Positions 29,775-60,474 of a DNA stretch of 64,000 nucleotides are shown here, one piece after another. How positions within the stretch are numbered: position 1 is the first letter of the stretch; the number at the start of each line of letters is the position of its first letter. Made by a program: the position numbers and the translations under genes. Source of the DNA: Rhodospirillaceae bacterium. GTDB taxonomy: Bacteria; Pseudomonadota; Alphaproteobacteria; MPNO01; UBA2964. The notes under the pieces were generated by a model. It searched no databases. It saw only the letters and a program-made list of their open reading frames with translations, and was not told the origin of the DNA. The DNA lies in assembly GCA_002720855.1 (NCBI GenBank), contig PBIN01000014.1, forward strand, positions 310,001 through 374,000. Direction: 5' to 3'.

Positions 29775-31049
29775 ATGCCTGACACACCTTTTATAGAGGA
29801 TGGCGGGAACGGCGGCGCGATTGATGAATTGCGCTGGCCGAATGACGACCTGACCCGTATTCCCGACTGGATCTACACATCAAACGAAATATTTGACCGC
29901 GAGCGCGAACGTATTTTCTTTGGTGAAAACTGGAGTTTTGTTGCGCTGGAAGCGGAAATTCCCGACCCCGGCAGCTTCAAACGCTCTTATGTCGGCGATT
30001 TGCCGGTTGTCGTATCGCGCGACGAAGATGGCGAGGTCCATGTTTTTGAGAACCGCTGCGCGCATCGTGGCGTTGAGTTTTGCCGTGATCTGAGAGGCAA
30101 GGTCGATAACTTCACCTGTCCCTATCATCAATGGATGTATGATCTGAAGGGCAATCTGATGGCGGTACCTTTTCGGCGCGGCGATCGCGGCCAGGGCGGC
30201 ATGCCAAAGGATTTCAAGCTGGGAGATTACAATCCGAAACATCTCAATGTCACGATCCGGCATGGTGTGGTGTTCGCCTCTTTCTCCGATACCGTTGGCT
30301 CGTTCGAAGACTATCTCGGGCCTGAAAATACCGAGCAGTTCGATGTTGTCTTTAAGGATCGCAAGCTCAAAATTCTCGGCTATTACAAGAACCGGCTGCA
30401 GGGTAACTGGAAGCTCTATCACGAGAATCTCAAGGACCCGTACCACGCGACATTGCTGCATGTGTATCTCGCAACCTTTCGGCTGATGGTAGCCGGTCAG
30501 AAATCCGCGATGATCTGCGATGAGTCGGGCCGTCATTCGACGATGGCCTCGGCCAAAGACGATAATATGGAGATCGGTGAGGAAACCGCGAGCCAGATGA
30601 AGTCCGCCTTCCGTGAAGGCATGGAGCTTAACGATCCCGAATTCCTTGATTACGTGCGCGAGTTCGATAGCCCGTGGACGGTGACGATGCAGATCATCTG
30701 GCCCAATCTCGTCGTACAGCGCGAGCTCAATACGCTGGGTATTCGCCACATCGTGCCGCGCGGGCCGCATGCGCTCGATATGTATTGGACCATGTTCGGC
30801 TATGATGACGATACACCGGAGCTCGAACGGCACCGTATGAAGCAGGGCAATCTGATGGGCCCTAGCGGGTATCTCGGTGTCGACGACAATGAAGCCATCA
30901 AGTTCCTGCAGGATGGGTTCAAACATTCCTACAGCGATGAAGGTGTCGTAAAGCTGGAGCCTGACAATGAAGGCAGCACGGAGACACTGATTTCCGAAGC
31001 CTCGGTCCGCGCGCTTTACCGGCATTATCGCGAGGTTATGGAAATTTAA
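29775..31049 (+). CDS. Aromatic ring-hydroxylating dioxygenase, alpha subunit
   Basis: A 424-residue Rieske non-haem iron oxygenase that would attack an aromatic ring. The Rieske cluster motif CAHRGVEFC then CPYHQW (about residues 95-121) has the two Cys and two His, and ENLKDPYHATLLH (about 219-231) carries the catalytic iron His pair and bridging Asp. Its length is normal. The substrate is not given by the sequence. A GGGAGGACC site lies 9 bases before ATG. The beta-subunit gene follows after 2 bases. Ferredoxin and reductase partners are not encoded next to it. Confidence 0.9.
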   Translation: MPDTPFIEDGGNGGAIDELRWPNDDLTRIPDWIYTSNEIFDRERERIFFGENWSFVALEAEIPDPGSFKRSYVGDLPVVVSRDEDGEVHVFENRCAHRGVEFCRDLRGKVDNFTCPYHQWMYDLKGNLMAVPFRRGDRGQGGMPKDFKLGDYNPKHLNVTIRHGVVFASFSDTVGSFEDYLGPENTEQFDVVFKDRKLKILGYYKNRLQGNWKLYHENLKDPYHATLLHVYLATFRLMVAGQKSAMICDESGRHSTMASAKDDNMEIGEETASQMKSAFREGMELNDPEFLDYVREFDSPWTVTMQIIWPNLVVQRELNTLGIRHIVPRGPHALDMYWTMFGYDDDTPELERHRMKQGNLMGPSGYLGVDDNEAIKFLQDGFKHSYSDEGVVKLEPDNEGSTETLISEASVRALYRHYREVMEI

Positions 31050-31051
31050 AA

Positions 31052-31567
31052 ATGGCGTCTTCCAACCCCGCGGCCACCAACCTGTCGCCGGACGAAGCCC
31101 GTGCGCTGCGTTTCGAAATCGAAGAATTCAATACCGAATATGCCCGGATTCTGGATGAGCAGGATATCGATGCCTGGCCGGATTTTTTTACGGCGGATGG
31201 GTTTTACCGCGTTACCGCCAAGGAAAATTTCGATGACGATCTGCCGGTTGGGCTGGTGTGGTGCGATGGCCGGCCGATGATGAAGGACCGTGCCGCGGCG
31301 GTAAAAACCACTATGGTGCACGCACCGCGCTATTTGCGGCACTACAACAGCAATGTCCGCGTCACCGGGGTCGATGCCGATGGAACCATCAATTCCGAGT
31401 CCAACTATCTCGTCGTGGAGACGTTGATGGAGGAAGAAACCCGTATCTTTCAGGCGGGTCTTTACATCGATCAGTTTGTCCGCGATGACGGTGTTTTACG
31501 GCTCAAGGCCCGCGATTGCGTCTATGACAGCCTGCTGATCCCCAATGACATGGTCTATCCGGTTTAA
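31052..31567 (+). CDS. Aromatic ring-hydroxylating dioxygenase, beta subunit
   Basis: A 171-residue protein of the ring-hydroxylating beta-subunit (NTF2-like) fold, which helps build the alpha3-beta3 hexamer. EIEEFNTEYARILDEQDIDA then WPDFFTADGFYRVTAKEN is typical. The gene begins 2 bases after the alpha stop, so the subunits are made together. The next gene is the decayed PEP-CTERM gene after a 97-base gap, unrelated in function. Confidence 0.87.
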   Translation: MASSNPAATNLSPDEARALRFEIEEFNTEYARILDEQDIDAWPDFFTADGFYRVTAKENFDDDLPVGLVWCDGRPMMKDRAAAVKTTMVHAPRYLRHYNSNVRVTGVDADGTINSESNYLVVETLMEEETRIFQAGLYIDQFVRDDGVLRLKARDCVYDSLLIPNDMVYPV

Positions 31568-31664: not shown

Positions 31665-33613
31665 GTGCATGCCGCGCGGGGGCCAAGAGTGAATACCAGC
31701 CTGGAGTCCAGTTCTCCTCGCAAGAACAGTTTGCGTGTTCGACTCGCCATGACAACGGCGCTGGCGGGTATTCTGTTCAGCTATGGCGGGCGCCAGGTCT
31801 ACGCAGGAACATGTACCGGCGGCGGCGGTATCTATTCCTGTTCCGGCGCTGCTAATCCCGTCACCGATGTCACGCAGATGCTCAATTCTGGCGGCCCACT
31901 GACGGTAACGACCACCGCTGGATTCGGGATCGACACCACAGCTGGTGTTTTCACCAACGCGATTGAGCTTACCGGAAGCAGTGGAATATCGTTCACTGAC
32001 AACAATTCTGCTGCCATTTCTGGAAGCGGCTACGGAATATACGCTCTCAACTCTGGAACAGGATCGATCGCGATAACGACCACCGGGACGGTAACCGGAA
32101 CAGGTACTTTCGCTATCTATGCGGATAATTCGGCCACAGGCAGTCTGGCGATTAACGCCCATAAAATTTCGGGTCTCCGCGGAATTTATGCTGACAACAG
32201 CGGGACAGGGACGACCAATGTAAACGTCACCGGGACCGTTAATACGACTGACTTCGGTATTTACGTCGATAACAGCAATACAAGCGGCGATATTACGATC
32301 TCAACAGGCGCGATAACGTCGGGCGACGATTCAATCGGTGTCGATCATCGGGGCGGCACCGCCAACATTACGGTGACCGGGTCAATCAATTCCGGCAATC
32401 ACGGCATATATGTCGATCAGGGCAGCACGGCCGGCGACCTGACGATTTCCACCCAGGCAGTAACGGCAGCAGACGATTACGGCATTCGCGTCGATAGTGC
32501 AGCTTCTGCGGTAAACATAACCGCGACCGGAACGGTTTCCGCGGATTTTGCGGCGATCTCGGTTGATACCCGGTCAACGAATTCGTCTGCTATTACGATC
32601 AATGCTGCATCTGCCACCGGTTCGGAATATGGCGTTTATATCCGACAAGACGGTACCGGAGATGTCGCGGTAACCGCGACCGGCGCCGTTTCTGGAGGCA
32701 CGGCAGGCATTTATGCCATGATGGACAGTACCGCTACCGGGACTGTGTCGGTAACAGTGAGTGGCTCCGTTTCCTCCAGTAGCGGCAATGGTATCCATAT
32801 TGATCAGGACGCCGGATATTCAAATACGCAGACGATTAATCTGAATTCCGGTGCGGCGGTAAGCGGGAACAATGCTGCAATTCTCACTACCAACGGCAAC
32901 GCAACGGTTACCGTTAATAGCGGTGCCAGCGTGACGGGCGGTATCCAGCTCGGAGCCAATAACGATCACATTATTTTCGATGGTGGTGATTTTTCGGCCG
33001 TCACCCTGCTTGACGGCGGTGATGACGCTTCTTCAGCCGATGGCCAGATCGATACCCTGACCTTCCGAAACGTCTCGGGATCCGTGGCAGGCAATATTAT
33101 TCAAAATATGGAACGTACTGTCGTCGATGCCGGCGCAAAAATGTCAATAACCGGCACTGTAACCACTGAAAAACTCTCGGTCAGCAATGGCGGTGAGCTC
33201 GGCGGTAGTCTGACCCTGAATGGCGATTTGATTGTCGATACCGGCGTGCTCAAGATTGCTGCGGGGGACATAATCAACGTATCGGGGCTCCTTGAAATTG
33301 GCGCCGGCGCGACAGTCGAATTTGATTTCGACAGCTTTGCCCCGGACCGATCGATGTTGCCAGCTTCTTTACCGGTACCGCTCCGAACTTTCTCGCAGGG
33401 TTTCTCAGTACCAATTTCCTGCTGATCACTGAAAATGCAGGATCGGTCGGTCAACTGCTTGAATTTGGTTTTGGCGGCGACAGCGTGTTTCTTACGGCGC
33501 AGCTTGAAGGCGGCGGCGGTGGATCACCGGTTTCAGAACCGGCAGGGGCGCTCGTGCTTGGCGCATGACTGTTGGGTGTCGCCGGGCTCCGGCGGCGTCG
33601 GCGCCGGAATTAG
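31665..33613 (+). pseudogene. PEP-CTERM beta-helix surface protein, disrupted by a frameshift and an in-frame stop
   Basis: A large secreted beta-helix protein with a signal region (MTTALAGILFSYGGRQVYA) and many imperfect repeats rich in Gly, Thr, Ser and Ile (for example YGIYALNSGTGSIAITTTG, then GTVTGTG). The intact frame covers 586 residues and ends at 33425, but near 33348-33353 (CGATCGAT) a frame change would restore SFFTGTAPNFLAGFL and the C-terminal sorting signal VSEPAGALVLGA, followed by an in-frame TGA (33566-33568), then LLGVAGLRRRRRRN and TAG at 33613. So two lesions separate the exosortase tail from the body. The protein, if made, would lack its tail. Sequencing error remains possible. 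Confidence 0.75.
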
Positions 33614-33623
33614 ACGCCAGGCT

Positions 33624-34835
33624 TTATCCGAGATAATCCGCGATCATATAGGCGAACACCTTGGCCGTGTCTCGCGTGCGGTCAACTGAGGAACAGTCAT
33701 CGTCCGTATGGGCGAACCTATCTTCGCCGCTGCCGTAGTTGGCACACGGTATTCCGACATGATTGAGATAGCCCTGATCGAACGCGGTCGTGGTGTAAAA
33801 AGTCTCAGGTGGTTCGCCGAGCATCTCTTCTGCGGCATTGCAGACCGCCTGTACGATGGGCGAATCCATATCCACCAATGACGGATACATAAAAGGCCCT
33901 TCCTTCATCTCGACCTGCCATTTCATGCCGCTCGGCGGGTCTTCCATGCCATCGACCTGCATCACAATCTTGCGGATGTCTTCCCATTTTTCATGCGGGT
34001 CATCGCCCGGCAGCAGGCGACGATCGAGAGTGATCTCACATTCGCCCTGGATGGTGTGGGTGGAATCGGGGAAGCTTCGGATGTGATTGACCGCGAACGT
34101 CGGCTTGCCAAGCGCCGGATGCTCACCGGTCAGTTCGAGCTGGTCCTCAAGCCGGTCGATGATTTCGCGGGCGCCGGTGATGGCGTTGCAGGCACGGTGT
34201 GGCGCGCTCGAATGGCCGGGGACGCCTTTGACGGTCACGAAAGTGTCGATGCGCCCGCGATTGCCGAGCGTCAATTTCAGGCTTGTGCCGCCAAGGATCG
34301 CCATGTCGGCGCGGACGCCTTCCCCCTCGACAACGCTGGTGATGGCGTCGTGGCGTCCGGTTTCCCCTGATACGCAACACAGGAAGACCAGCTGCCCGTT
34401 GATGGGGAGGTCAGAAGCGATCATCGTCTCCATCGCGTGCAGCATGGCGGCCATCGTGCCTTTCTGTTCGCTGGCGCCTTTGCCGAGCACCACCTCACCC
34501 GGCAGGTCGTACTGGGCACCGTCGGCTACATCACCGTCATAGGCGTTTTTCATCGTCGATTGCGGCTGGTTCATGGCGTTACTGATAAACATCAGCGATT
34601 TGCCGGTTGTGTTCTCGCCATATGTTGCGATCAGGTTGTCCATGCCATCGTAACGGATGTCGGAGATTCCCATTTCACGCAGGCGGGGCTCGACAGCTGT
34701 TCGGATAAACTCGGCGAGCAGAGGTTCAGCCTCGAACTTGTCGGTCTGTGGACTTGGCACTTTGACGAGCTCCACCAGAATGTCCTTAACCCGGTCCGTC
34801 GAAATAGCGTTTTCAATGGTTTCTTTGATGCCCAT
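33624..34835 (-). CDS. M20-family peptidase homologue with altered metal-site residues
   Basis: A 403-residue protein of the M20 (carboxypeptidase/ArgE/DapE) fold with two domains: catalytic part at both ends and a central dimerisation domain (KGVPGHSSAPHRACNAITGA). The usual metal ligands are largely replaced: the GHxD loop reads SNAMNQP, the ADMKG loop reads ASEQKG, the DEE site reads SGET, and the EPT site reads GGTS. The final His (RFAHTDDD) remains. Several close relatives are annotated as hydrolases, but this one may be inactive or use different chemistry. The gene stands alone, in opposition to the methyltransferase at 35023. Confidence 0.8.
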   Translation of the reverse strand: MGIKETIENAISTDRVKDILVELVKVPSPQTDKFEAEPLLAEFIRTAVEPRLREMGISDIRYDGMDNLIATYGENTTGKSLMFISNAMNQPQSTMKNAYDGDVADGAQYDLPGEVVLGKGASEQKGTMAAMLHAMETMIASDLPINGQLVFLCCVSGETGRHDAITSVVEGEGVRADMAILGGTSLKLTLGNRGRIDTFVTVKGVPGHSSAPHRACNAITGAREIIDRLEDQLELTGEHPALGKPTFAVNHIRSFPDSTHTIQGECEITLDRRLLPGDDPHEKWEDIRKIVMQVDGMEDPPSGMKWQVEMKEGPFMYPSLVDMDSPIVQAVCNAAEEMLGEPPETFYTTTAFDQGYLNHVGIPCANYGSGEDRFAHTDDDCSSVDRTRDTAKVFAYMIADYLG

Positions 34836-36345: not shown

Positions 36346-37833
36346 ATGGAAATGCCGGAACCGGATGCGGCCATAATTGCGAGACGGGCCGCTATTGTTG
36401 AAGAGCTTAGAAGAATAGTGCCGGCGGAGTCGGTAATTGCCGAGGAAGAAGGGCTGCGTGCCTACGAGTGCGACGGGCTGACTGCTTACCGGCAATTGCC
36501 GCTGATCGTCGTATTGCCAGAATCCACGCAGCAGATTTCCCGAATTTTGAAATATTGTCATGAGGCCAATGTAAAGATCGTCCCGAGGGGTGCAGGTACA
36601 TCATTATCAGGCGGCGCTTTACCCTTGGCTGATGCGATCACGCTGGGGCTCGGCAAACTGAACCAGATTCTCGAAATTGATTACAGTAACCGATGTGTTG
36701 TCACACAGCCGGGTGTTACGAACTTGGCCATATCGCAGGCTGTGGATGGTGATGGCTTTTATTATGCGCCTGATCCCTCCAGTCAGATCGCCTGTACGAT
36801 CGGCGGAAATGTTGCTGAAAATTCCGGTGGGGTTCACTGTCTGAAATACGGGCTGACGACCAATAACCTTCTCGGGCTCGAAATCGTATTGATGGATGGT
36901 GAAGTCATTCGGCTAGGCGGCAAACACCTTGATTCCGGCGGCTATGACCTGATGGGTATCATAACCGGATCAGAAGGACTCCTCGGTGTTATCACGGAAA
37001 TTACAGTTCGTATTCTTGCCAAACCGCCCGCTGCAAGGGCTCTGTTGATTGGGTTCGATACCAGCGAAGAAGCGGGGAGCTGCGTGGCAGCGATCATCGC
37101 AGCAGGAATTATACCCGGCGGCATGGAAATGATGGACCGCAAGGCGATTCATGCCGTCGAGGATTTCGTTCATGCAGGATATCCGCTTGATGTCGAAGCG
37201 ATATTGATCGTCGAACTCGACGGTCCTGACGAAGAGGTCGAGTATTTGACCGGAAAAGTCGAACAAATTGCTCGGGAAACCGGTGCCCGTCTGGTACGCG
37301 CCAGCCAGAGCGAAGATGAGCGGCAACTGTTTTGGGCAGGCCGCAAGGCGGCGTTTCCTGCAGTAGGCAGAATTTCACCTGATTACTACTGTATGGACGG
37401 CACAATCCCCCGTCACAAATTGCCTGAAGTCCTGAAACGTATGTCGGAGGCTTCCGAGCGCTACGGACTTGGCGTTGCCAACGTGTTTCATGCTGGAGAT
37501 GGAAATTTGCACCCGCTTATTCTGTATGATGCGAACGTGCCGGGTGACTTGGAAAAAGCCGAGGAATTTGGCGCCGAAATTCTTACTTTATGTGTCGAGG
37601 TTGGCGGTGTGTTGACAGGCGAGCACGGCGTTGGCGTTGAGAAGCGTGATCTAATGGAAACCATGTTCACCGAGATCGATCTCAAGCAACAGCAACGCGT
37701 TAAATGTGCCTTTGATCCAGCACAACTCCTGAATCCGGGTAAGGTCTTTCCGACATTGCATCGCTGCGCGGAATTGGGGCGCGTTCATATTCAAAGCGGT
37801 GAAATGCGGTTTCCGGATTTACCCAGATTTTGA
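36346..37833 (+). CDS. glcD: Glycolate oxidase subunit GlcD (FAD-linked oxidase)
   Basis: A 495-residue FAD-binding oxidase, the catalytic subunit that turns glycolate into glyoxylate. IVPRGAGTSLSGGALPLADA (about residues 76-95) is the FAD loop, GLTTNNLLGLEIVLMDG (about 168-184) the second flavin motif, and LHRCAELGRVHIQSG closes the protein. The length is standard. It is the first gene of a glcDEF operon: glcE starts at the stop (TGATG overlap). D-lactate or related 2-hydroxy acids are possible alternative substrates, since the subfamily is broad. Confidence 0.9.
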   Translation: MEMPEPDAAIIARRAAIVEELRRIVPAESVIAEEEGLRAYECDGLTAYRQLPLIVVLPESTQQISRILKYCHEANVKIVPRGAGTSLSGGALPLADAITLGLGKLNQILEIDYSNRCVVTQPGVTNLAISQAVDGDGFYYAPDPSSQIACTIGGNVAENSGGVHCLKYGLTTNNLLGLEIVLMDGEVIRLGGKHLDSGGYDLMGIITGSEGLLGVITEITVRILAKPPAARALLIGFDTSEEAGSCVAAIIAAGIIPGGMEMMDRKAIHAVEDFVHAGYPLDVEAILIVELDGPDEEVEYLTGKVEQIARETGARLVRASQSEDERQLFWAGRKAAFPAVGRISPDYYCMDGTIPRHKLPEVLKRMSEASERYGLGVANVFHAGDGNLHPLILYDANVPGDLEKAEEFGAEILTLCVEVGGVLTGEHGVGVEKRDLMETMFTEIDLKQQQRVKCAFDPAQLLNPGKVFPTLHRCAELGRVHIQSGEMRFPDLPRF

Positions 37834-39071
37834 TGTCTTCTCCGCTGGAACCAGGAACTGATATCGAACTCGCTACGATGATTGGCGATGCTCTAGCCGA
37901 TCACGAGTCACTGGAAATTTTTGGTGGCGGTTCCAAGAGGTCGCTGGGCCAACCGCTAGAAGTCGACCGGGAGATATCTCTGGCCGGGCTTTCCGGAATT
38001 ACACTGTATGAGCCCGAGGAACTTGTATTGTCGGCGCGCGCCGGAACACCGCTAACAGAGATTCAGGAATGTTTGGCGGAGAAGGGGCAAGAGCTTGCTT
38101 TTGAACCACCGGATTGGCGAGCGCTTTTGGGAACAACCGGCGAACAAACAATCGGTGGCATAGTTGCTACCAATTTAGCCGGACCACGCAGAATTCGAGC
38201 CGGCGCACCGCGGGATCATCTGCTCGGCGTGTCCCTGGTGACGGGAAGGGCCGAGACCGTAAAAACGGGAGGTCGCGTTGTTAAAAATGTTACCGGATAT
38301 GATCTCTGCAAGTTGGTCGCGGGATCATATGGAACGCTTGGTATCGCAACTGATTTAACCGTCAAAGTGCTTCCCGCCGGAGAAAAAACCCGAACGGTTC
38401 TCGTTAGCGGTCTAGATGCCAAGGACGCCGTAAAGGCCTTGAATCTTGCGCTTTCCAGTCCGCACGATGTTTCCGCCGCTGCATATGTACCCGGCGTTCT
38501 GACAGGCTGCTCGAGCGTGTCCTATGTTTCTGGCGCTGGTGCCGCGCTAGCTGCCGTTCGTATTGAAGGACCGGGTCCATCAGTCGAAGCGCGTTGTCTG
38601 GCGTTAAGAGACATCCTGAGTGGATATGGCGCGATTGAGGAATTACATTTTCATAATTCAAGCCGGTTTTGGAAGGAGATCGCCGATGTTTCCCCGTTCT
38701 TTGACACCCATGATGTTGTTTGGCGTGTTTCAGTTCCGCCATCCATTGCCGCCAGTACAGTTCAAAGAATCCAAGAGGAAATCGATGCTGATTTCTATTT
38801 TGATTGGGGCGGTGGATTAATTTGGATCGGTCTCAAAAGCCAGCCCGCTGACGGCGGTGCTTCGGTCGTGCGCGGTGCATTTGAAATTGGTGATGGACAT
38901 GCGACTCTTGTTCGCGCCCACTCAGAATTGCGTTCGACTCTCCCGGTTTTTCAACCTCAAACAAAGCCTGTGAAGGCTTTGAGCCAACGAATTAAACGGG
39001 CATTTGATCCTGGGAGTATTTTAAATCCGGGCCGGATGAGCCTTTCTTTGGAAGCGGCAAATGCGAACTAG
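37833..39071 (+). CDS. glcE: Glycolate oxidase subunit GlcE (FAD-binding)
   Basis: A 412-residue FAD-binding oxidase subunit. GGIVATNLAGPRRIRAGAPR and TGGRVVKNVTGYDLCKLVAG, followed by SYGTLGIATDLTVKVLP, are the FAD-binding region typical of GlcE. The ATG at 37833 shares bases with the glcD stop. The gene overlaps glcF by 11 bases. It combines with GlcD and GlcF to form the membrane-associated glycolate oxidase complex, passing electrons to the respiratory chain. Confidence 0.88.
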   Translation: MSSPLEPGTDIELATMIGDALADHESLEIFGGGSKRSLGQPLEVDREISLAGLSGITLYEPEELVLSARAGTPLTEIQECLAEKGQELAFEPPDWRALLGTTGEQTIGGIVATNLAGPRRIRAGAPRDHLLGVSLVTGRAETVKTGGRVVKNVTGYDLCKLVAGSYGTLGIATDLTVKVLPAGEKTRTVLVSGLDAKDAVKALNLALSSPHDVSAAAYVPGVLTGCSSVSYVSGAGAALAAVRIEGPGPSVEARCLALRDILSGYGAIEELHFHNSSRFWKEIADVSPFFDTHDVVWRVSVPPSIAASTVQRIQEEIDADFYFDWGGGLIWIGLKSQPADGGASVVRGAFEIGDGHATLVRAHSELRSTLPVFQPQTKPVKALSQRIKRAFDPGSILNPGRMSLSLEAANAN

Positions 39072-40380
39072 TTTTTCGATCGCTCAGCTCAACGATCCGG
39101 AAATCGCTGACGCCAACGAGATATTGCGGTCTTGCGTTCACTGCGGATTTTGCACCGCCACCTGTCCGACTTACGCCTTGTTGGGAGACGAGCTGGATAG
39201 TCCCCGCGGCCGCATATACCTCATAAAAGACATGTTGGAACACGATAGAGCCGCATCCGAAACAGATGTCCAACACATCGACCGCTGCCTTTCCTGTCTC
39301 TCGTGTATGACAACTTGCCCATCAGGTGTGAACTATATGCATCTGGTGGATCACGCCCGCCGTCACATAGAGAATACCTACCGGCGAAAATTCCTTGACC
39401 GCATATTGCGATTTTTTCTCGGTCGGGTTCTGCCCAACAGCAGGTTATTTAATATCGCGCAGTTCGTCGGAATGTTTGTTCGGCCAGTCGCAAGAATCCT
39501 GCCCGGCAAGCTCCGTGTAATGGTGAATTTGGCAAAAACGCGAAATATACCAAATAAAGTAGTGACCCCAATTAAGAAATCATCGGATGGTGACATAAAA
39601 TTTCACGTCACACTACTGACAGGGTGTGTTCAGGACGGTATCGATCCTGCAATAAATCAGGCGACGGTTCGACTCCTCACCAGACTTGGGTGTGACGTTG
39701 AAATACGTCAGGACGTTGGGTGTTGCGGTTCCCTGAACCACCACCTCGGTCAGGAGGGTCGCGCGCTTGATCTGATGAAATCTAATGTTACAGCCTGGTC
39801 CAGGAGCGATCAGGAAAAGAAACTGGATGCCATTGTTGTCAACGCATCGGGTTGCGGAACAACGCTAAAGGATTATGGCTTTATCCTGCGCAATGATCCC
39901 GCCTATGCCGAAGACGCCGAACGGATATCTAACCTCTCTTGCGACATTACAGAATTTTTGTCGCGAACCGGTTTCAGTTCGCATCTATCGAAAACAAAGG
40001 AATTGCGAGTTGCCTATCAGTCTCCCTGTTCCATGCAGCATGGACAAAAAATTAACCAACAACCGTTAGCATTATTACGCGAGTGCGGATTTGATGTCGT
40101 CGAACCTGCCGACAGTCATTTGTGCTGCGGATCGGCGGGAACTTTTAATGTCTTGCAAAATGAGTTAGCCGACAAATTGCGGGATAAAAAAATAGCATCA
40201 CTGTCAGCGCTTTCGCCTGATATAATTGCCAGCGGAAATATAGGTTGTATGACGCAACTCGATACGGCGGGAAAACAAGATATGCCATGTCCGATCGTAC
40301 ATACAGTAGAACTCATCGACTGGGCTACCGGCGGTCCAATGCCATCTGTCTTGCAAGGAAACGAAAGTAAGTTTCAATGA
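39061..40380 (+). CDS. glcF: Glycolate oxidase iron-sulfur subunit GlcF
   Basis: A 439-residue protein with two [4Fe-4S] clusters near the N-terminus, CVHCGFCTATCPTY (about residues 22-35) and CLSCLSCMTTCPSG (about 76-89), and two CCG domains, seen as GCCGSLNHHLGQ and LCCGSAGTFNVLQ. It transfers electrons from the FAD subunits. It overlaps glcE by 11 bases and the next gene by 4 (ATGA), so all four genes of the run are coupled. Confidence 0.9.
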   Translation: MRTSFSIAQLNDPEIADANEILRSCVHCGFCTATCPTYALLGDELDSPRGRIYLIKDMLEHDRAASETDVQHIDRCLSCLSCMTTCPSGVNYMHLVDHARRHIENTYRRKFLDRILRFFLGRVLPNSRLFNIAQFVGMFVRPVARILPGKLRVMVNLAKTRNIPNKVVTPIKKSSDGDIKFHVTLLTGCVQDGIDPAINQATVRLLTRLGCDVEIRQDVGCCGSLNHHLGQEGRALDLMKSNVTAWSRSDQEKKLDAIVVNASGCGTTLKDYGFILRNDPAYAEDAERISNLSCDITEFLSRTGFSSHLSKTKELRVAYQSPCSMQHGQKINQQPLALLRECGFDVVEPADSHLCCGSAGTFNVLQNELADKLRDKKIASLSALSPDIIASGNIGCMTQLDTAGKQDMPCPIVHTVELIDWATGGPMPSVLQGNESKFQ

Positions 40381-58678: not shown

Positions 58679-59509
58679 TTAGGGCAGAGGCGTTATATCG
58701 ATGACAAAGGGGCCGCTTTCGATCTGCAAAGTTGGGCCGGCGTTGCCAATCAGTGTCATGCCTGTTGTTACGCGGAAACTGATATCCATGCCTGTGGTAG
58801 CGTTTACTATCGACACTGGTGTCCCAAAGGTTTGGACACCAAATAGCCGTTGAACGCCCGCTGCTGCGGTGGCGAGTTGGTCCGCTGCTGTCATGAAATG
58901 GCCTGTGACCGTAGATGTTCCGCTACTCGTTGTGGATGTTGCAGAGGCTACTGCAGAAAAACCGGCGCCACCGTCGAAATCAGTCAGCGGAATTTGAAGC
59001 GTTCCGGCGGCCGGCGCAACGCCTGCACATGTTGCGGAGGTTCCGCCCGAGGTGGAGCCGGTAATCGTTGCACAGAATTGTCCATTCCCACCGGCGTCAC
59101 CGGTGATTGCCACACCAAAATCTACGACTGCCTGGATGTCGAATGAGGCATCCATCCGGATGTATCCATGCGTGTAACTACCATTGGGCGGTCTGGTAAA
59201 TGTGCCAGAAAGTGTCGAGGTAGATGTTGGCGTTACATTAACCAGCGCACCAGAGCTATTGGAAAACGTCGTGAAACAGCTCGACAGGACTGGGGAGCTT
59301 GCAGCCGTAGGTGCTGTTGGCGCAGATGTACATAGGCCCAATTCATAGATTCGTATCTGATAGAAATCAGGTTGTCCCCAACACGCCGCACCGGTGGGAA
59401 ATGTTGTAGTGGTGCCGGTAACGGTGCAGGAAGGTAGATTTTGAGCGTTCGCCGGAGATGGAGCGAAACACGCAGCAAATAATAAAATGAATATTGCAGC
59501 TATGCGCAC
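58679..59509 (-). CDS. Secreted protein, partner of the inverse autotransporter-like gene
   Basis: A 276-residue secreted protein with signal peptide MRIAAIFILLFAACFAPSPA (cleavage near ANA). The mature part is Ser/Thr/Gly/Ala-rich with several Cys that could pair. YIRMDASFDIQAVVDFGVAI, followed by an FCATITG segment, resembles beta-sandwich surface proteins. I recognise no family. It starts 11 bases after the stop of the upstream barrel gene on the same strand, so they are most likely one operon: barrel first, then a secreted substrate. Nothing else similar is in the window. Confidence 0.65.
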   Translation of the reverse strand: MRIAAIFILLFAACFAPSPANAQNLPSCTVTGTTTTFPTGAACWGQPDFYQIRIYELGLCTSAPTAPTAASSPVLSSCFTTFSNSSGALVNVTPTSTSTLSGTFTRPPNGSYTHGYIRMDASFDIQAVVDFGVAITGDAGGNGQFCATITGSTSGGTSATCAGVAPAAGTLQIPLTDFDGGAGFSAVASATSTTSSGTSTVTGHFMTAADQLATAAAGVQRLFGVQTFGTPVSIVNATTGMDISFRVTTGMTLIGNAGPTLQIESGPFVIDITPLP

Positions 59510-59520
59510 TGGTTCAGCTC

Positions 59521-60474
59521 CTAAAAACCGCTTGCCGTAACTGAGAAATTGCCTAGCACGCGCCGTTCCTTTCGAATCAGGTTTTCTCGACGAACTTTGT
59601 CATATTTATGCGGTGACATGCTCGCAAGCTGATAAGCGTGCTTCGTAAAAAAGGGCCGCTTCCGTTTAGGTCCGAGTACCAAATCGACGAGGTTGACACG
59701 AACAGCGAAGAAATTTTCGTTGTTGGAGTCCTCATAGTGTCGCCGCCCCAACTCCAAAATTATTCCTCTATAAAACTCACCCTCAAAGGAATAGCTGATC
59801 GCACTTTCGCTAAAGTCACCGGTTTGGCCCGTCCACTCAATAATTTTTCCGTAGAGTTTTGTGCGCGGCATGTAAGGCAAGGGCATGCCCAGTTCAATGT
59901 CGTAACCATCCAGTGCGCGTTCTTCAAAACCGTCAGCACCAACTTTCCATCCACTCATAGCCCAGTAATAGTTAAAATTGATTTCGCCGACTGTTGTCCG
60001 GATTTCTGTACCAACGCTCGTGCGACTATGGTTGTAGGGCCATTCATAATCGAAAAAACTATTGACCCCGAGGAGAAGTTTTTCGTCAAAAACCAGTCGA
60101 CGATATCCCATGCCAATATTCGTTGTCGTCTTTGATCCAAATCGGGAAACACTGCCCTGAGTGAAAAACAGATCATTGATTTCCGATCTTTCAAATAGAG
60201 GGACGAGAAATAGAGCGCTCCCTATTGGAGACAGGTCGTCACTTAACCGTAATCTTATTTCGGCTGTCGGCACAAAGGTACGGAACCACTCTTCGGTAAA
60301 CCACGACCCAGCATCGGCGAAACTGTTTACTCCGCTTGCAAGGGCTTGCGTGCTGTCTCCCGTCTGTGCGGCCTGCAGTATTTCCTTAGGCTTAATTTTT
60401 GAAAGAATGGAGTCCTGGGCGGTCTCGGCAGGTACACTGGTTGTCAGGAATGCGAGACAAAACCCAAAACCCAA
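59521..60474 (-). CDS. Inverse-autotransporter (intimin/invasin-type) beta-barrel protein
   Basis: A 317-residue outer-membrane barrel resembling the intimin/invasin beta-domain. WFRTFVPTAEIRLRLSDDLS, GSVSRFGSKTTTNIGMGYRR and LLGVNSFFDYEWPYNHSRTS are typical barrel-strand segments, and VGTEIRTTVGEINFNYYWAM follows. No passenger (Ig-like) domain follows the barrel, so it ends unusually early. The start given is a TTG at 60474 inside a (TTTTGGG)x3 repeat and has no ribosome site. An ATG at 60535 would give a better signal peptide if one repeat unit were absent. The gene may therefore be phase-off in this sequence. Confidence 0.75.
   Translation of the reverse strand: MGFGFCLAFLTTSVPAETAQDSILSKIKPKEILQAAQTGDSTQALASGVNSFADAGSWFTEEWFRTFVPTAEIRLRLSDDLSPIGSALFLVPLFERSEINDLFFTQGSVSRFGSKTTTNIGMGYRRLVFDEKLLLGVNSFFDYEWPYNHSRTSVGTEIRTTVGEINFNYYWAMSGWKVGADGFEERALDGYDIELGMPLPYMPRTKLYGKIIEWTGQTGDFSESAISYSFEGEFYRGIILELGRRHYEDSNNENFFAVRVNLVDLVLGPKRKRPFFTKHAYQLASMSPHKYDKVRRENLIRKERRVLGNFSVTASGF

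Follow-up and report, generated by a model that had tools for sequence, protein, structure and literature searches.

A conserved M20-fold protein family with altered active-site residues and a possible new mode of catalysis

Proteins of the kind described here are labelled by annotation pipelines as 'M20/M25/M40 family metallo-hydrolase', a name that asserts a chemistry for which half of the machinery is missing, and the question raised by the locus is what such a protein may still do. The gene lies in a stretch of 64,000 nucleotides (the window) from the genome of a Rhodospirillaceae bacterium, contig PBIN01000014.1, in which a first-pass annotation made from the letters alone had reported an M20-fold protein with altered motifs. 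The open reading frame, its coordinates and the motifs quoted were all as read in the sequence:

33624..34835, minus strand: coding sequence of the M20-fold protein (P0001), 403 aa, from the list of open reading frames, Pfam and AlphaFold2

Membership of P0001 in the M20 superfamily is beyond chance at the level of profiles, with matches to PF07687 at E 4.5e-17 (62.4 bits, cut-off 21) and PF01546 at E 9.1e-13 (49 bits, cut-off 24.6). The AlphaFold2 model, with a 64-row family alignment as input, has a mean pLDDT of 96.9 and a pTM of 0.92, the nearest solved fold is that of DapE 7uoi (Foldseek E 4.3e-30), and the two superpose with Z 39.5 and rmsd 2.5 over 368 residues, the catalytic and lid/dimer domains both being covered (model 1-403). 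Further close folds are those of other DapE and ArgE chains and of 5-nitroanthranilate aminohydrolase (5k8m, Z 37.0). The M20-type fold proposed earlier is thus borne out by Pfam, by the model and by DapE. Among the best 25 of 32 NCBIfam matches no model was above its cut-off; the top one, matched over the whole length of P0001, was the YgeY family of E. coli (NF009555/TIGR03526) with 143.1 bits vs a cut-off of 321, whilst the DapE-ArgE model TIGR01910 gave 122.6 bits, under its cut-off of 217.6.

In H. influenzae DapE the metal ligands are H67, D100, E135, E163 and H349, D69 orients H67 and E134 is the acid-base catalyst, the general base whose loss abolishes activity; the oxyanion is stabilised by H194, a residue of the partner subunit, and the alpha-carboxylate of the substrate is bound by R258 and N245 (available excerpts of PMC13058870). 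H349 is assigned to the second metal site in the available excerpt of PMC4320195, where the corresponding ArgE residues are given too. A profile alignment of P0001 to DapE structure 3ic1, with the roles taken from Table 2 of PMC13058870, places the residues as follows:

34563..34580, minus strand: NAMNQP, residues 86-91, in the place of GHxD, with N86 for the site-1 ligand H67 and M88 for D69, which orients it (alignment)
34461..34469, minus strand: E123 Q124 K125, the bridging ligand position, with E123 for D100 and SEQKG for ADMKG, a conservative Asp-to-Glu change (alignment)
34350..34367, minus strand: G157 E158 T G R161 H162, with G157 for the general base E134 and the ligand E135, the last Glu of DEE, retained as E158 in the SGE of the window (alignment)
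34284..34289, minus strand: G183 T184, in the place of EPT, with G183 for its Glu, the site-1 ligand E163 (alignment)
34212..34214, minus strand: H208, retained, equivalent to DapE H194, the oxyanion His of the partner subunit (role from the excerpts of PMC13058870)
34056..34058, minus strand: H260, in the place of DapE N245 (alignment)
34017..34019, minus strand: R273, retained, equivalent to DapE R258, which binds the alpha-carboxylate of the substrate (role from the excerpts of PMC13058870)
33777..33779, minus strand: D353 of AFDQG / ALDAG (conservation, 83 rows)
33708..33710, minus strand: H376, retained, equivalent to the site-2 ligand H349 (conservation, 83 rows)

In DapE numbering H67 and E163 make up metal site 1, and D100 at the bridging position and E135 go with H349 to site 2. 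Set against the five ligands H, D, E, E, H of a dinuclear M20 enzyme, P0001 has N86, E123, E158, G183 and H376, which does not make up the set; DapE and ArgE (M20A) share its fold over the whole length, yet by this alignment P0001 has lost metal site 1 and the general base, with site 2 remaining in a form in which Asp has become Glu. In all ten canonical M20 comparators the MAFFT alignment has the ordinary residues at the mapped positions, and His at 260 is found in 0 of the 10. A pairwise phmmer alignment is shifted by one residue at GHxD, with A87 against the His, whereas the profile alignment and MAFFT pair N86 with H67, and the His and Asp of GHxD are absent from P0001 under either. The first-pass claim that most metal ligands are replaced therefore stands for GHxD, the general base and EPT, but not for E158, which is kept, nor for E123, which is conservative; the claim that only the last His is kept fails, as the profile alignment retains E158 and shows the conservative E123 beside H376.

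These replacements are not peculiar to one protein. A family scan of genome contigs gave matches in 144 stretches; a relative is encoded in 82 of these, 80 of them were retained, and two near-identical plasmid copies (Roseivivax, Roseovarius) were added to give 82 loci, or 83 rows with the window. Two of the motifs were used in the scan, thus conservation of those motifs is partly built into the following counts: E123, Q124, G157, E158 and H208 are present in 83/83 rows, A87 and M88 (one gap) and also K125 in 82, H260 and R273 (two gaps each) and G183 in 81, D353 in 80 and H376 in 79, the other four being gaps. Position 86 is Y in 51 rows, N in 17, H in 13 and F in one, with one gap. In loci found by the first search motif alone GE stands at 157-158 in 18/18, and E123-Q124 is present in 26/26 of those found by the second alone. 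The 64-row alignment (A2), from which 19 of the 82 loci were left out as truncated or near-identical, has 30 invariant columns with 8 of the 10 mapped catalytic positions among them, and outside the two search motifs 5 of 7 catalytic positions are invariant (hypergeometric p 1e-5, which is descriptive only as the rows share descent). Apart from stray rows the family lacks the general base and the EPT Glu, the GHxD Asp is missing from all, and the replacements of P0001 recur in relatives as distant as ~30% identity. An alignment of homologues had been named in the first pass as a check, and the replacements do prove to be conserved, as the counts for G157 and M88 illustrate; with the base, the EPT Glu and the GHxD Asp lost family-wide and a confident fold model, the earlier suggestion that the protein is stable but lacks the canonical two-zinc site is supported.

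The family marks A87-M88, E123-Q124-K125, G157-E158, H260, D353 and H376 are all present in P0001, and the signature can be written [N/Y/H]-A-M-[N/T]; G-x-G-x-x-E-Q-K; [S/A]-G-E-T-G-[R/K]-H-D; G-[T/N]; H-T-[I/V]; D-x-G; H. A regular expression applied to residues 60-140 picked out a canonical GHxD in 2 of 80 proteins (L093, L107), a match that was discarded, the aligned site reading YAMTH in both. His at position 86 is found in L047, L048, L050-L059 and L079, mostly titled Betaproteobacteria or kin, where the EPT Glu and the base are still absent.

It could be supposed that other residues stand in for the lost ligands, for example H/Q90 for H67 and an Asp after GT for E163, which would leave an ordinary two-metal M20 hydrolase. 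Position 90 is His in 32/64 rows and Gln in 20/64, an Asp or Glu lies within 179-188 in 17/64, and His is found at 86 in 8/64 rows of A2 (13/83 in the full set). P0001 itself, however, has N86, Q90 and zero acids at 179-188, none of the candidates is conserved in the family, and such an enzyme is very improbable.

A pseudogene or sequence artefact is barely credible, as nothing was found in its favour and the open reading frame is intact, with zero stops, in relatives at 84-93% identity. The dN/dS of 0.026-0.090 (15 pairs from six near relatives, and rough, with dS > 1 in 13/15) therefore shows that the P0001 gene is under purifying selection and, being well under 1, rules out its decay.

The descent of the family was followed with a quick maximum-likelihood tree of 79 rows, these being 64 of the family, 5 of a side branch (branch C) and 10 canonical M20s. 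The family and branch C form one clade apart from the 10 canonical M20s (SH-aLRT 99), which places P0001, as judged from these alignments, in an M20 subfamily of single origin. The nearest canonical rows are YgeY and a Pararhizobium M20 (SH-aLRT 86), the exact sister being unsure because several canonical rows are long-branched. Record titles of family rows name Alpha-, Beta- and Deltaproteobacteria, Binatota, Bacillota, Actinomycetota and one archaeal MAG, many rows being MAGs for which single odd taxon titles are unreliable. Profile A2 at E 1e-70 matches the window's own genome alone among 299 sampled genomes of the phylum, therefore the family is uncommon across the phylum as a whole, and P0001 at 1e-30 matches 23/61 genomes (its own included), 5 of these through branch C.

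Branch C (L025-L029, from genomes of the window's order) reads YTPVQH, GQNK and EGRSS-H, the last His is absent, and the three remaining ligand places hold Q, R and a gap, with H208, H260 and D353 kept. This pattern suggests that the metal may be dispensable, and it is because of branch C that a metal-free site becomes more likely, one in which H208, H260, D353 and E123/E158 would form an acid-base site that reuses old ligands for hydrolysis, isomerisation or elimination. The loss of site 1 and of the base, the Asp-to-Glu change at the bridging position, the new and invariant H260 and the retention of H208, H260 and D353 in branch C after all three remaining ligands have gone are consistent with such an enzyme, which is unlikely but deserves serious weight. 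Against it, the main family does not vary at E123, E158 and H376, and the simplest explanation is that these residues are still binding something; branch C, for its part, has a very long branch (2.87) and its function may differ. The neighbours of branch C genes resemble TRAP transporter genes (gene maps L121-L123, named by eye).

The genes around the family bear on what it may act upon. Two sets of genes flank the M20 gene in the window and in its closest relatives:

36346..40380, plus strand: glycolate-oxidase-type glcDEF neighbour genes (GlcD models; they adjoin the M20 gene in near relatives; context only)
29775..31567, plus strand: Rieske oxygenase alpha and beta, AndAc/AndAd-like under the equivalog cut-off (context, shallow clade only)

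The Rieske genes were discounted as a pointer to function, their co-occurrence being confined to the shallow clade of the window. Between them and the M20 gene is a repetitive, autotransporter-passenger-like open reading frame without a Pfam match (window 31665-33425), at the place of which the relatives L033, L034 and L036 carry a TauE-type gene instead.

Across the wider family the loci were compared with a control set of 40 M20 loci, taken from the genomes that hold 25 of the family loci. Of these 39 were used, L155 being left out as its contig is equal in length to that of L077, and the control M20s are high-scoring PF01546 matches (roughly 91-175 bits). A stretch of 100 bases, L126, was left out of the analysis. 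An XDH-type Mo-hydroxylase large subunit is found in 16/82 family loci, a DHODH-like reductase in 12/82 and an Amidohydro_1 protein of the guanine deaminase/SsnA kind in 18/82, each vs 0/39 controls. Any one of the three is found in 33/82 vs 0/39, with a Fisher p of 1.8e-7 that is only indicative given shared descent, queries taken from family loci and the choice of the 25 genomes after the gene maps; within those 25 family loci the figure is 18/25, and it is the full set of 82 that should be relied on. Acyl-CoA ligase (24/82 vs 3/39), PIG3-type oxidoreductase (19/82 vs 2/39) and TRAP transporters (18/82 vs 3/39) follow the same order, NMT1-type transporters are found in 10/82 family loci, and TctC receptors do not differ (17/82 vs 6/39). 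On the tree 9 changes are required for XDH (11/63 rows) and 10 for Amidohydro_1 (12/63 rows), therefore the association of these markers is not a single event. A URC-type pyrimidine set is encoded near the family member in L077 (15276-18475) and L080; it consists of a URC1-like protein of the GTP cyclohydrolase II kind, DUF1688 and uracil phosphoribosyltransferase. The family loci thus often look, from their gene content, like clusters for the breakdown of N-containing ring compounds; the gene map of the window's own neighbourhood shows no XDH, DHODH-like or Amidohydro_1 gene.

Such neighbourhoods weigh on whether P0001 is an enzyme at all. It may be a pseudoenzyme, either a binding protein or a subunit without activity that pairs with a canonical M20 enzyme, and the loss of the general base and half of the ligands fits with this, as do further M20 genes in some loci (L030 6041-7165, L077 1860-4441). 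A pseudoenzyme need not retain its whole pocket, yet 8 of the 10 mapped catalytic positions are invariant; the window is without a second Pfam M20 gene that could be the partner, the genome's five other M20 matches lying outside it, and the relatives sit in catabolic clusters, all of which leaves a pseudoenzyme rather unlikely. In the first pass a binding protein, a regulator and an enzyme with new chemistry were put forward together, and the invariant pocket, the dN/dS and the catabolic clusters of the relatives shift the balance to the last. It is probable that P0001 is active as an enzyme, with its chemistry changed, rather than a peptidase in decay. L045 (9923-12734) and L077 (9004-12652) each have a pair of adjacent family members from different branches, which could stand for two steps in a single pathway or form a mixed dimer.

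Known systems offer some guide to that chemistry. The bridging motif SDQ of YgeY, the nearest named relative, resembles the SEQ of P0001, but YgeY has the full set H, D, D, EE, E, H, unlike P0001, and is 24-28% identical to proteins of the family loci. In reductive urate breakdown YgeY acts on the ureido compound albizziin, removing the ureido group (as described in the excerpts of PMC12507026). The C. difficile form of the pathway employs UacX, a DHO_dh enzyme, together with Xdh and SsnA, and several family loci have a similar gene content. The E. coli proteins YgeX, YgeW, YqeA and YgfK have zero matches at 1e-15 in the 82 loci and the window, HyuA matches 3 loci and SsnA 8 at only 24-31% identity, and the family loci were accordingly rejected as reductive urate clusters proper. 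A second M20-fold enzyme, 5-nitroanthranilate aminohydrolase (5k8m/n/o/p), acts on an N-bearing aromatic and uses a single labile metal; it resembles P0001 in fold and profile (profile E 5.2e-8, ~20% identity). Glutaminyl cyclase (M28-like), of related fold, binds a single zinc through Asp, Glu and His, the pattern of ligands kept in P0001, but retains its general-base Glu. In the excerpts available PMC10306065 mentions only the nitroanthranilate aminohydrolase step, and the pseudo-metallopeptidase review PMC11266112 was not found to include M20. A search of the literature on M20 pseudoenzymes, on 5-nitroanthranilate aminohydrolase and on this gene cluster, with subscription papers mostly outside its scope, gave no description of the family.

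The most likely reading of P0001 is a C-N hydrolase of N-heterocycle catabolism that works with one metal or none. Of its forms the one favoured here, at a little short of an even chance, is an active dimeric enzyme with one metal at E123, E158 and H376, residues that could hold one still. The subfamily has given up metal site 1 and with it the general base, but has kept the carboxylates and His of site 2 and gained a new His, H260, in the substrate pocket. The second site would then hold the metal, H208 and H260, which the assumed dimer geometry would bring in from the partner subunit, may serve in oxyanion binding or proton transfer, and R273 may bind a carboxylate of the substrate. The bond cut, without E134, would be a C-N bond of an amide, a ureido group or an opened ring, in substrates from the catabolism of N-containing ring compounds, and one-metal C-N hydrolysis fits both the action of YgeY on albizziin and the type of cluster. 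Against the one-metal enzyme, metal binding at the second site may be weak once site 1 is gone, the base E134 is lost with no evident replacement, branch C has lost the ligands, and 49 of the 82 family loci, as well as the window, are without any of the three ring-catabolism markers.

A wider scheme, in which an M20 branch moved from two metals to one and then, in branch C, to none, with catalytic His residues reaching across the dimer and C-N cleavage in undescribed N-heterocycle pathways, is less likely than not. If true, it would offer a natural series for the study of a metallohydrolase giving up its metals. The family also marks clusters that resemble uncharacterised N-heterocycle catabolism, makes it testable whether the M20 fold works with one metal or none, and is an M20-fold variant with a possible new mode of catalysis.

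Elsewhere in the window an inverse autotransporter beta-domain protein is encoded at 59521-60474 (PF11924, 118.7 bits), next to an unmatched open reading frame of 276 aa at 58679-59509. Many proteins of the window (at 2454, 3176, 12821, 17517, 26998, 40938, 48506 and 52224) end in a PEP-CTERM-like sorting signal, which suggests an exosortase system.
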